Both the position numbers and the translations under genes were made by a program. Shown in pieces: positions 28,880 through 46,390 of a DNA stretch of 64,000 bases. Source of the DNA: Bacteriovorax sp. BAL6_X (GTDB lineage Bacteria > Bdellovibrionota > Bacteriovoracia > Bacteriovoracales > Bacteriovoracaceae); NCBI RefSeq assembly GCF_000443995.1, contig NZ_AUMC01000006.1, positions 496,001 through 560,000 of the forward strand, given 5' to 3'. The notes beneath the pieces are model-generated. The model had not been told where the DNA came from. It did not search any database and saw only the letters and a program-made list of their open reading frames with translations. Position 1 is the first letter of the stretch. The number at the start of each line of letters is the position of its first letter.

Positions 28880-28931
28880 TAACTTTAGACAAAACACACA
28901 AAATTTCGCACAAACCTAGGGAGACACACGG

Positions 28932-29729
28932 ATGAGACAATACTTAGATCTAATGAAACACGTGCTAGAAAATGGTCAGAAAAAAGAAGACCGTACTGGT
29001 ACAGGGACTATTTCAGTTTTTGGTTACCAAGCTCGCTATAACTTAGAAGAAGGTTTTCCATTAGTGACAACTAAGAAGTGTCACCTTCGTTCAATTATTC
29101 ATGAACTCCTTTGGTTTCTAAAGGGTGATACAAATATTGCATACCTCAAAGAAAATAAAGTTCGTATTTGGGATGAGTGGGCGGATGAAAATGGCGACCT
29201 TGGCCCTGTCTATGGATATCAGTGGCGTCACTGGAAAACTCCAAATGGTGAAGAGGTCGATCAGGTTGCAAACTTAGTTAAGGGCCTAAAAGAAAACCCT
29301 TTCTCTCGTCGTCATATTTTAACGGCGTGGAACCCTGCCGATGTTGATAATATGGCCTTACCACCATGTCATTCGTTTATTCAATTCTATGTTTCTCCTG
29401 ATATGAAATTGTCTTGTCAGCTTTATCAAAGATCTGCAGATATCTTCTTAGGTGTACCATTTAATATTGCTTCTTACGCACTAATGACTATGATGCTTGC
29501 TCAAGTTTGTGACTTAAAGCTAGGTGATTTTGTCCATACAATGGGAGATGCTCACCTTTATTTAAATCATATTGAACAAGCACAACTTCAACTGACTCGT
29601 GAACCACATGCACTTCCTACAATGAAGATCAATCCTGACGTTAAGTCGATATTTGATTTTAAATATGAAGACTTCACTTTAGAGAATTATGAGGCCCATC
29701 CACATATTAAAGGTGAGGTATCAGTTTGA
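28932..29729 (+). CDS. thyA: Thymidylate synthase
   Basis: Folate-dependent conversion of dUMP to dTMP. The 265-residue product is standard ThyA, with the catalytic Cys146 in [11 protein letters not shown], Arg-rich phosphate binding (SRRHIL), [18 protein letters not shown] and [15 protein letters not shown] precedes the ATG. The stop overlaps the folA TTG start (TTGA), so the dihydrofolate made by ThyA and its reductase are produced from one message. Confidence 0.97.
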
Positions 29730-36679: not shown

Positions 36680-37651
36680 TTAAAACTCCGCGTCTAATGT
36701 GAATGTATTTTCTGACTTCTCAGAAAGGATACCTGGTCTTTGGTATTCAGAAACTCTCTTCTCGAAGAAATTTGTTTTACCTTCTAGAGAAATTAGCTCC
36801 ATCCAATCAAATGGGTTCACTGAACCGTAGTGAGCTTCAAGACCAAATTGTTGCATCCAAAAGTCAGCAACAAATTCAATGTATTGCTTCATAAGATCAG
36901 CGTTCATACCAATTAAAGAAACAGGAATTGCATCAGTGATGAATTCTTTTTCAATTTCAACTGCTTCAGTAAGGATCTCTTTAATCATCTCCTTGCTACA
37001 TTGTTCTTCTTTATCAAGAAGTGAATGTAGAAGTACTGCAAATTCACAGTGTAGACCTTCGTCGCGAGAAATGAATTCGTTCGAAGTACATAGACCTGGC
37101 ATTAGGCCTCTTTTCTTAAGCCAGAAAATTGCACAAAATGAACCAGAGAAGAAGATTCCTTCGATGGCAGCAAAGGCAACAAGTCTTTCAGCAAAAGTAT
37201 TTTTTGAGTATAGCCACTTCATTGCCCAGTCAGCTTTCTTTTTAACTGGTTCAAAGTGATCTACTGCGTGGAAAAGACGATCTTTTTCTTTAGCGTCTTT
37301 TACATATGTATCAATTAATAGAGAGTAAGTTTCTGAGTGGATATTTTCCATAGCAATTTGGAATCCGTAGAAACATCTAGCTTCTGGGTTTTGCACGTCA
37401 TTGTAAAAACGTACTGCTAGGTTTTCATTAACAATCCCATCACTTGCAGCAAAAAATGCAAGAACGTGAGTAATGAAGTGTCTCTCATTGTCATTTAACT
37501 TTTCCCAGTCTGTAATATCTTGGGCCAAGTCGATTTCTTCAGCAGTCCAGAAAACTGCCATGTGTCTTTTGTACATTTCCCAAATTGAATTATACTCGAT
37601 TGGGAAAAGGACGAATCTATCGTCATTTTGTGCTAGAATTGGTGAAGTCAC
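36680..37651 (-). CDS. nrdB: Ribonucleotide reductase class Ia, radical subunit
   Basis: Diiron-tyrosyl radical subunit that activates NrdA. Iron ligands can be placed: Asp41 (EEIDLAQD), Glu102 and His105 (AMENIHSE), Glu in [10 protein letters not shown], and Glu/His in EGLHCEFA. The radical Tyr109 is present ([10 protein letters not shown]), so this is a tyrosyl-radical type and not an Mn/Fe tyrosine-less type. Like nrdA it is eukaryote-like. GTG start at 37651 with a full AAGGAGG. It is first in the nrdB-nrdA operon. Confidence 0.96.
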
Positions 37652-38091
37652 AAGTTCCTCCTTAACTTTTGCAATAGCGTGTGTGTGCTAAATACATGCA
37701 ACTTAAAATCAGTTAAAAAAATATTAAATCTCTTAAATGTTTTTTAATAAGATTGTGTCGTGTTGTTCTTATTCAGTGTATGACTCGTAACTTTTTATTT
37801 CAATACACAAGTCTCCATAGATTTTTCTTTTTTTTGAAGGGCCGCTAATTTTTATACTTGATCAGCCTGATGTGTCTTTCTAGACCCATTAAACAAGGGG
37901 TTTAGGCACTTTTTCAAGAATTATTTTAAGAAAAAAAATACAGTCTTAAAAATTCTGTCATCTAATTTTTAGTGTTAAGAGAAGAGTATGATGCGATGTG
38001 CTTATACCATATGTTGTGGCCGTAATTTTTTTGACACTACTATATCTTGATAAAATATACGAACGATGAGATGCGTTGTTTATATCCTAGA
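37652..38091 (-). promoter_or_regulatory. 440-bp intergenic region upstream of nrdB with NrdR-like sites
   Basis: No gene is seen. On the minus strand CCACAACATATGGTAT (38019-38004) matches the NrdR box consensus (acaCwAtATaTwGtgt) at 12 of 16 positions, including all core bases. About 30 bp further upstream, TCAAGATATAGTAGTGT (38050-38034) matches 13 of 16 if one extra base is allowed. A third, half-site-like ATTGTGT lies at 37752-37758. These may form a repressor region for nrdBA, but they lie about 350 bp from the start codon. The rest is AT-rich, without strong hairpins. Confidence 0.4.
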
Positions 38092-39139: not shown

Positions 39140-40003
39140 TTAGGCCTGAATTCTGGCCTGAATTAACTCAGGTCGTGTCCTCTTGAGATTCCACGTTAAG
39201 CCTACGAAGTTTAATGAACGAATTAACCATTTTGTCGGATCAAAGTGGTACCACTTGATGCCATTTCGATAGTCTGTTTGAAATGTATGGTGAAAGTTGT
39301 GGTATCCCTCACCATATGTAAATAAGGCCATTACCCAGCTATCTCTAGCCGTTTGTCCTTTGTCATAAGGACGTGTTCCAACAACATGGCATAGTGAATT
39401 GATAAAGAATGTACAGTGGTGAACAAAAACGATCCTTGCTACACCTGCAACAAATAAGCCTCCTAGCCAAGAGCCTGCCCATAGGTAACCAATTAGTGCA
39501 GGTAGTGCAAAGCTAAATAGAGCAACAAAACCAAGATAGAATTTATGTTGGAACATTACCATTGGGTCTTTTAATAGATCTTTAGAATATTTATACTCAT
39601 CTTGATCTTCAAGTAGGAGGATCCATCCCATGTGAGCATAGAAGAAGCCTTCATTAATATTGTAAGGGTCTAGATCAGTATCGACCTTGCCGTGGTGAAC
39701 TCTGTGGTCATTACACCACTTAAGTGCTGAGTTTTGTACAGCAGCAGCACCAAAAATAAGAAGAAAAAGTCTTACCGGCCAGCTAGCTTGATACGATCGA
39801 TGCGCAAATAAACGGTGGTATCCGGCCGTAATTCCGAGTCCTGTTGCGATGTAGAAAATTAAAGATAATGCTAAGATTCTCCAATCAAAACCATCAAGTT
39901 TAAGCCATGCAATTGTACCTGCAATAGCAATCAGTGGTGTGATCAACAGAAAGAGGGTGTTTGTTTTATTTAAGTTTTTTAATGAATAAGTCTTTGTGCA
40001 CAT
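39140..40003 (-). CDS. Fatty-acyl (delta-9 type) desaturase
   Basis: Integral membrane diiron desaturase introducing a double bond in acyl chains. The three His boxes are present: HRLFAHRS near residue 63, HRVHHGK near residue 100, and YHNFHHTF near residue 238. About four membrane helices surround them. 287 residues, normal for bacterial acyl-CoA/acyl-lipid desaturases. Membrane-fluidity control, for example in the cold, is the usual role. It is divergent from the GltB-like gene. Confidence 0.93.
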   Translation of the reverse strand: MCTKTYSLKNLNKTNTLFLLITPLIAIAGTIAWLKLDGFDWRILALSLIFYIATGLGITAGYHRLFAHRSYQASWPVRLFLLIFGAAAVQNSALKWCNDHRVHHGKVDTDLDPYNINEGFFYAHMGWILLLEDQDEYKYSKDLLKDPMVMFQHKFYLGFVALFSFALPALIGYLWAGSWLGGLFVAGVARIVFVHHCTFFINSLCHVVGTRPYDKGQTARDSWVMALFTYGEGYHNFHHTFQTDYRNGIKWYHFDPTKWLIRSLNFVGLTWNLKRTRPELIQARIQA

Positions 40004-45476: not shown

Positions 45477-46040
45477 TTATGCTGCTAATTCAAATTGCAT
45501 TTTTTCTTTAGTAAGGTTCGTTAGTTTATCAAAATCATAAGTATACCTTTCTCTTAATAACTTATTCTCTTTAATAGTATTTACTAATGCCATTAAATGG
45601 TGTCCTTTGCGATAGTCGTTTTCTTCTTTATTCGACTTCTCACGATTACAAGTTGGACATAGAACCTGAAGGTTGTCGATCATAAACTCTAAGTGTGGGT
45701 GAATCGATTTAGGTTTAATATGATCAATATGCATATTGTCGTGCTCGATTCCACACTTAAGACACTTCGTGCCTTGGATACGAAAGACTTGCTTGCGTAA
45801 GTACTTCCAATTTTTCTCATTCCCAAATGCCACTTGAGATTTTCTTGTGTGAATAAATTTGGCAATCTCCATCTGCGTTCTAAATTCTGCTTGCTCGGCC
45901 TGCGCTAGACCAAATTTTGGTCTGATAACAAAAACAAATAGCGATAACATCAACGAGAGTGAGCCAATATACCATACTAGTGTCATGGCCAATTCACGAT
46001 AGAAACCAAACGATAATCCATTCATCGCGATTGCATTCAT
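45477..46040 (-). CDS. Membrane-anchored HNH endonuclease
   Basis: 187 residues from ATG 46040, fixed by a GGAGG eight bases upstream; the frame runs on to a GTG at 46112 that sits inside another AAGGAGG and is rejected. One membrane helix at about 18-40 precedes a linker. A complete HNH domain follows: zinc pairs Cys93/Cys96 (CLKC) and Cys128/Cys131 (CPTC), catalytic DH at 106-107 (HIDHIKPKS), Asn123 (DNLQ), and N...K (NREK). HNH nucleases cut double-stranded DNA; membrane tethering is unusual. A sigma-54-type promoter lies upstream. Confidence 0.88.
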   Translation of the reverse strand: MNAIAMNGLSFGFYRELAMTLVWYIGSLSLMLSLFVFVIRPKFGLAQAEQAEFRTQMEIAKFIHTRKSQVAFGNEKNWKYLRKQVFRIQGTKCLKCGIEHDNMHIDHIKPKSIHPHLEFMIDNLQVLCPTCNREKSNKEENDYRKGHHLMALVNTIKENKLLRERYTYDFDKLTNLTKEKMQFELAA

Positions 46041-46390
46041 TGCGTTTTCCTCCGTCAAAATGTCTGTGTAATGTGCGTGTGTTGTGTGTGCCTTGTTTAA
46101 GGACTTCTTCACCTCCTTGGCTATATAAAAGCAAAGGGCGTGCCAAAAAACATAACAATATTAGATGGTTATTATCTAAAAATAAGAATGAACAGGTGAC
46201 ACAAAGTAACTGTCTGATTTGCTCAGGATCAGAGCGGCGCCACAAAAGATTCAAATCTATATTATAAATAATGTTTTAAGTTACAAGTAGTCTAATTAAT
46301 TTGTGTTAGCCTAGCTAAGTGTTTTTTATTGTAGAAAAAAGTTCATCTTTCCGATTGGGGAGATATCTAATTTTATATGGATGGAATGTA
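46041..46390. other. 350-bp divergent intergenic region
   Basis: It separates the HNH gene (minus) from the large secreted gene (+). It holds the sigma-54 promoter (46130-46146), a GT-rich tract at about 46066-46095 in the HNH leader, an AAGGAGG at 46112-46118 that has no well-spaced start codon, and the two inverted repeats noted with the promoter. No strong + strand promoter is recognisable; TTGTGT near 46300 is a weak -35 candidate. No gene is seen. Confidence 0.6.
46130..46146 (-). promoter_or_regulatory. Sigma-54 (-24/-12) promoter for the HNH gene
   Basis: On the minus strand TTGGCACGCCCTTTGCT fits the RpoN consensus YTGGCACG-N4-TTGCW at every defined position, with exactly ten bases between GG and GC. 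Predicted initiation is near 46119, giving an about 80-base leader before the ATG at 46040. Two inverted repeats lie upstream, TTAGAT/ATCTAA (46161-46179) and TCTGAT/ATCAGA (46213-46233); the latter is placed where an activator site could be. Confidence 0.75.

Follow-up and report, generated by a model that had tools for sequence, protein, structure and literature searches.

We propose that a gene for a membrane-anchored HNH nuclease (TM-HNH) in Bacteriovorax sp. BAL6_X is transcribed from a sigma-54 promoter and, judging from conserved sequence and predicted RNA pairing, is probably silenced at the level of translation by a small RNA (sRNA) of a core DNA-replication regulon. In the proposed scheme, the first layer of control would be the firing of a sigma-54 activator, upon which the HNH gene is transcribed. 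In the second layer, a trans-encoded sRNA would pair through an exposed GUGUGUGUG segment with a CACACA element of the HNH mRNA and through an exposed UGUCUCUC segment with its Shine-Dalgarno or start-codon region. Pairing over the ribosome-binding site would block translation, the position of the pairing being our reason for taking the effect of the sRNA as repression, and synthesis of the HNH protein would require both activation through sigma-54 and a low level of the sRNA. The same sRNA would act on mRNAs of the whole DNA-synthesis set, namely replication, dNTP supply and chromosome segregation, and the HNH protein would be a late-joining member of this regulon. The sRNA is an undescribed core family of the Bacteriovoracaceae, and we regard it as a more important result than the HNH gene itself.

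The TM-HNH gene and its sigma-54 promoter

The window, by which we mean the whole 64,000-nucleotide stretch analysed, carries on its minus strand a TM-HNH gene for a 187-aa protein (45477..46040), assigned by Pfam and by its invariant residues. The gene most likely starts at the ATG at 46040, which is preceded by GGAGG; the mechanical open reading frame begins at a GTG at 46112, inside the leader of the mRNA. Hydrophobicity places a transmembrane helix at residues 21-39 (45924..45980, minus strand; Kyte-Doolittle 2.27, and 2.2-2.5 across all 8 orthologues) with K/R on its C-terminal side, and the HNH domain occupies residues 93-138 (45627..45764, minus strand; PF01844, 37 bits vs a cut-off of 21.4). 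The catalytic and zinc residues C93, C96, D106, H107, N123, C128 and C131 are intact and all invariant among the 6 orthologues aligned, and the single helix ahead of a C93/C96-DH-N-C128/C131 core was found with the residue numbering given in the original prediction.

In nearly all orthologues, the positive charges lie mainly after the transmembrane helix, with few or none at the N-terminus, and this distribution suggests that the HNH domain is most likely on the cytoplasmic side, where it would cut DNA at the membrane. The opposite topology, N-in and C-out, with extracytoplasmic action of the protein on prey DNA or DNA from the environment, would agree with a single N-terminal helix and with the predatory habit of the relatives, but the same charges favour a cytoplasmic C-terminus and make this reading unlikely. 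Handling of DNA at the inner face, either incoming DNA or DNA recycled during growth, fits better than attack on external prey, and the nuclease may also be inactive or act on RNA. A retron/Septu PtuAB or other defence module was considered and rejected; the PADLOC matches span the HNH core region only and come without a partner, and a search of the immediate neighbours of the HNH gene for an ATPase (PtuA) gave no match.

Upstream of the gene lies a sigma-54 (-24/-12) promoter, TTGGCACGCCCTTTGCT (46130..46146, minus strand), which scores 12/12 on TGGCACG-N4-TTGCW, while no other site in the window exceeds 10. Its TGGCACGCCCTTTGCT (46145-46130, minus strand) is the sole zero-mismatch match to TGGCACGNNNTTTGCW in a scan of the whole window, where matches with 3 mismatches occur at chance level; every defined position of the consensus is thus matched, as had been claimed. 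From the position of the promoter, the mRNA is predicted to start near 46119, 79 nt from the ATG. The RpoN that such a promoter presupposes is encoded in the genome (PF04552, E 1.9e-62), and genome-wide, TGGCAYN5TTGC has 25 matches vs 3 for the pattern read backwards, implying that the sigma-54 regulon is real in this genome. A possible activator site, TTGTGTCACCTG (46193..46204, minus strand), is weak; it is a GGTGACA-type motif present in 4/8 orthologues.

Orthologues of the HNH gene occur in 9/129 genomes of the family, the present genome counted. One of them (L167, G092:C14:12629-13090) is diverged, contains an in-frame TAG and is probably a decayed copy. The 8 intact orthologues share 41-47% protein identity with the window protein, and in all 8 the promoter and the N-terminal helix are kept, as is a CACACA element in the leader. 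Homologues without the transmembrane segment and the promoter, which would have spoken against the arrangement, are therefore absent among the intact orthologues, and the promoter and TM-HNH layout is kept in relatives. Taken together, it is strongly supported by sequence conservation that the HNH gene is transcribed from a sigma-54 promoter, and would hence be expressed only when an ATP-driven activator fires. The conditional, sigma-54-dependent expression of a membrane-tethered HNH nuclease put forward in the original prediction is well supported by this conservation, while, of the uses it suggested (incoming DNA, self-DNA or prey DNA), direct cutting of prey DNA outside the cell has become less likely in view of the charges that follow the helix.

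Of the 25 sigma-54 sites matching the consensus (L015-L039), the majority precede short-leader genes, mainly of exported proteins of unknown function. Five of these promoters, of secreted proteins (L015, L017, L026, L035, L037), have in common an upstream TGTCTAA-N-TAGACA-like dyad, which suggests a separate sigma-54 activator regulon. Another strong sigma-54 promoter (L021, G000:C6:168912) stands upstream of a DksA/TraR-like zinc-finger gene, and a gene similar to it in another genome (L198 in G093) has a long CACACACACACA-GGAGAGA leader.

A trans-encoded sRNA complementary to the HNH leader

Among the 25 genomic sigma-54 sites, the one at C6:290552 (minus strand) precedes no obvious gene; it is followed by a short RNA with a GC-rich hairpin and a T run at its end. 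This sRNA gene of ~90 nt (G000:C6:290437-290526, minus strand; loci L022/L120/L135), driven by its own sigma-54 promoter, lies 251 kb from the HNH gene. The RNA starts with GTGTGTGTG, which is complementary to the CA repeat of the HNH leader, and includes CTCCGTCAAAATGTCT, exactly complementary to 16 nt across the HNH ribosome-binding site. Upstream of it is a gene for an 81-aa protein that has no Pfam match and is seemingly kept beside the sRNA in relatives.

A sigma-54 site followed by GTGTGTG was found at one locus in each of six HNH-bearing genomes (6/7 searched), with 0 in the reversed control; it was not found in the seventh (G004), which has no HNH match and is 78% complete. The six sequences picked by this pattern were used to build a covariance model restricted to the transcript, with the promoter left out. 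The conservation of the 5' seed is in part a product of this choice, since the model sequences were selected by GTGTGTG, whereas the conservation of the promoter in further genomes is not. With the model, the sRNA was detected in 100/129 genomes of the family (Bacteriovorax/Halobacteriovorax), nearly always as a single copy, and there was no match among ~240 further genomes of the phylum. Every one of the 30 top-scoring loci has a sigma-54 promoter in which GG and GC never vary, and all 30 contain GUGUGUG, the AAAGGAUUUUUU loop and [AU]UGUCUCUC. The two invariant segments, 5'-GUGUGUGUG and UGUCUCUC, are unpaired, and the stem between them varies in sequence while its pairing is kept, a pattern as expected if the seeds are exposed on a structured scaffold. 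No Rfam family, Qrr included, reaches its gathering threshold for this sRNA, and identity with a known RNA family was rejected because the sub-threshold matches are chance matches only. A PF17209 search for Hfq in the genome gave no match; CsrA is encoded. The sRNA promoters share TGTCAGTCA, which the HNH promoters lack; a common activator is not supported on this ground, and the different upstream motifs imply that the two kinds of promoter probably answer to different activators.

The 5' leader of the HNH mRNA (46041..46119, minus strand), as delimited by the promoter position and the ATG, contains both predicted pairing sites. CACACACAACACACGCAC (46073..46090, minus strand) is the complement of the 5' seed GUGUGUGUG (-17.1 kcal/mol), and AGACATTTTGACGGAG (46050..46065, minus strand), over the ribosome-binding site, is a 16-nt perfect complement of the sRNA CTCCGTCAAAATGTCT (-27.1 kcal/mol, 0/1000 shuffles). 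CACACA-type elements are present in all 8 orthologous leaders, and in 8/8 genomes both seeds are complementary to the leader, one to CACACACA and the other to the ribosome-binding site or start codon. Pairing of each sRNA with its cognate leader beats shuffles in 8/8 genomes (combined p <=0.032; <0.001 in four). The strongest seed-2 pairings are those of the present genome (G000, -27.1 kcal/mol) and of G106 (-25.1 kcal/mol), the latter a long, nearly continuous duplex across the start codon, and in G001, G002, G005, G015 and G106 both the ribosome-binding site and the AUG lie within the seed-2 duplex. In G003 and G059, seed 2 alone is not significant (p 0.34 and 0.15, respectively).

The sigma-54 control could be real and the sRNA match incidental, with CACACA an element common in leaders and GGAGAGA a ribosome-binding site like any other. 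CA-rich leaders also stand ahead of other genes, the CA repeats could serve otherwise, for example as a translation enhancer, and the second seed on its own is weak in two genomes. We nevertheless consider a coincidence quite unlikely, given the 16-nt complementarity in the present genome, the start-codon duplex in G106, the pairing in every one of the eight genomes and the strong bias of the target signature to DNA-synthesis genes described below. The predicted control of the HNH mRNA by the sRNA thus has strong computational support.

Two further features of the leaders were noted. The 5' end of the leader carries an AAGGAGGTGAAG element (46107..46118, minus strand), which has no start codon at Shine-Dalgarno spacing and is AAAGGAGG-like in G001, G003, G015 and G106; it may be a ribosome standby or a CsrA site. 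Four HNH leaders (L004, L005, L003, L165) contain a hairpin, UUUUUAAGGA(U/A)..AAAA, with an AAGGA loop similar to the sRNA's invariant AAAGGAUUUUUU loop, and these hairpins are possible CsrA sites.

Silencing by an sRNA could also mean a dedicated type I toxin-antitoxin pair, with the sRNA as antitoxin to a DNase toxin, the HNH protein, like RalR/RalA or SymE/SymR. The perfect complementarity at the ribosome-binding site, a nuclease-type product with a membrane segment and the presence of the sRNA in every genome with an intact HNH gene would suit such a pair. However, the sRNA is encoded far from the HNH gene, has many other likely targets and occurs in ~90 genomes of the family that have no HNH gene; its distribution is much wider than that of the supposed toxin, which is why we rejected this highly improbable reading.

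A candidate DNA-synthesis regulon

As dnaA could not be located in the present genome (no match to Pfam DnaA_N), the test of the regulon covered 464 kb of the contig to which the window belongs, including the window itself, and 415 genes there were ranked by duplex energy with the sRNA. The HNH leader ranks 1/415, at -44.2 kcal/mol against a mean of -16.8 and an sd of 4.1 kcal/mol. Ranks 2 and 4 belong to thyA and nrdB, both inside the window. The thyA leader, with its ACACACAAAATTTCGCACAAACCTAGGGAGACACACGG region (28898..28931, plus strand), precedes the thymidylate synthase gene (28932..29726, plus strand; PF00303, E 1.7e-129), and the nrdB leader (37652..37690, minus strand), whose GCACACACACG is the best seed-1 match of the 415 genes, precedes the gene for the small chain of ribonucleotide reductase (36683..37651, minus strand; PF00268, E 2.6e-115). 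A fatty acid desaturase gene (39143..40003, minus strand) with a CACAAACACGAGAGACACCT leader ranks 6, and its mRNA is a possible further target; CACGAGAGACACCT stands immediately before its ATG.

The lead of the HNH leader over the other 414 genes might instead mean that this leader acts as a sponge: expressed from sigma-54 as a decoy of high affinity, it would sequester the sRNA and thereby free the replication genes, and the protein would be secondary. The seemingly different activator sites of the two promoters would agree with this. On the other hand, the protein encoded behind the leader is conserved and its catalytic residues are invariant, and so few genomes of the family (9/129) have the leader that we regard a sponge as very unlikely.

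For the family-wide search, a signature was derived from the sRNA seeds alone, CACACA-N(0-30)-GAGAGAC-N(0-12)-ATG. It gave 80 matches vs 7 for the reversed control in the 129 genomes, overlapping matches counted; this strict form has no match in the present genome. Among the 42 gene starts that follow the signature, 30 belong to replication, recombination, dNTP or segregation genes: dnaA (4), dnaE (4), dnaB, recA, mutS and an SbcD-like gene; ribonucleotide reductases (3), thyA (3) and tdk (2); and parB, scpB (3), scpA, Xer-like recombinases (4) and HU. Two more are starts of the HNH gene itself. Representatives of these genes were checked with Pfam and the others were assigned by eye from sequence, and the 30 starts include orthologues of related species, so that they stand for ~14 gene families and not for 30 independent events. 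A binomial figure was also computed, with a 5% background that is a guess, and is to be taken as indicative only. The signature occurs in 34/100 genomes with the sRNA vs 3/29 without a detected sRNA (Fisher p 0.018), and of the genomes in which dnaA was located, about half have a CACACA element ahead of it. The signature, together with a GAGAGACAAGGAGG leader, was also seen in four genomes belonging to a single genus (L234, L235, L236, L237), at the gene of an uncharacterised 114-aa protein (MYLAIAVE...); the one copy scanned has no Pfam match.

These observations lead us to a broader and more tentative idea, which we hold to be somewhat less than an even chance, that in the Bacteriovoracaceae the sRNA works as a global, sigma-54-switched brake on DNA synthesis, high in the non-replicating attack phase, whose release starts replication inside the prey, with the HNH nuclease wired in. 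Under such a brake, dnaA, dnaB, dnaE, nrd, thyA, tdk, parB and scpA/B would be repressed together, and the membrane HNH nuclease would be the strongest sRNA target found in this genome. How predatory bacteria stop chromosome replication while hunting and start it in prey is largely unknown. If the idea is true, a conserved, single-copy sigma-54 sRNA would provide coordinated post-transcriptional control of DNA synthesis, and an orphan TM-HNH nuclease would gain a regulatory context.

Comparison with known systems

The HNH core of the window protein is identical in its C-C/DH/N/C-C residues to that of other PF01844 endonucleases (5h0m; PtuB/retron HNH), from which the protein differs in its N-terminal transmembrane helix, in having no adjacent PtuA seen, and in its sigma-54 and predicted sRNA control. 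The type I systems RalR/RalA and SymE/SymR each have a dedicated antitoxin, whose gene lies at the locus of the toxin. These systems likewise place the mRNA of a nuclease-type protein under an antisense RNA, but the RNA described here is distant, more widespread and, by prediction, multi-target, unlike the locus-bound RalA and SymR. Antitoxins of the sRNA type have been reviewed (PMC4147584).

Among sRNAs that act on dnaA, the nearest precedent is EcpR1 of Sinorhizobium, a trans-encoded RNA that represses dnaA (and gcrA) by base-pairing, is Hfq-independent and is conserved across families (PMC4414408). EcpR1 is alphaproteobacterial, with a GC-rich pairing loop and stringent-response control, whereas the present sRNA has two linear seeds and a sigma-54 promoter. 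To our knowledge, EcpR1 has neither a nuclease nor the full dNTP/replication set among its targets, and we know of no sRNA that covers replisome, dNTP and segregation genes together. For sigma-54-driven transcription, the closest precedent is the Qrr sRNAs of Vibrio, transcribed by sigma-54 and LuxO, an enhancer-binding protein (PMC10162802, PMC2680268). Their targets lie in quorum sensing. The Qrr sRNAs are Hfq-dependent, whereas the PF17209 search found no Hfq in the present genome. Neither EcpR1 nor Qrr joins the targeting of dnaA with sigma-54 transcription, and a literature search for an sRNA with this target set, or for sigma-54 sRNAs of Bacteriovorax/Bdellovibrio, found nothing relevant.

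In Bdellovibrio bacteriovorus, a predatory relative in the same phylum, sRNAs of the attack phase have been described, with homology outside Bdellovibrio unreported, and this phase is non-replicative (PMC3627812). The model of the present sRNA, in turn, has no match outside its own family among the genomes of the phylum searched. A sigma-54 sRNA that represses replication genes would fit the non-replicative attack phase of Bdellovibrio.
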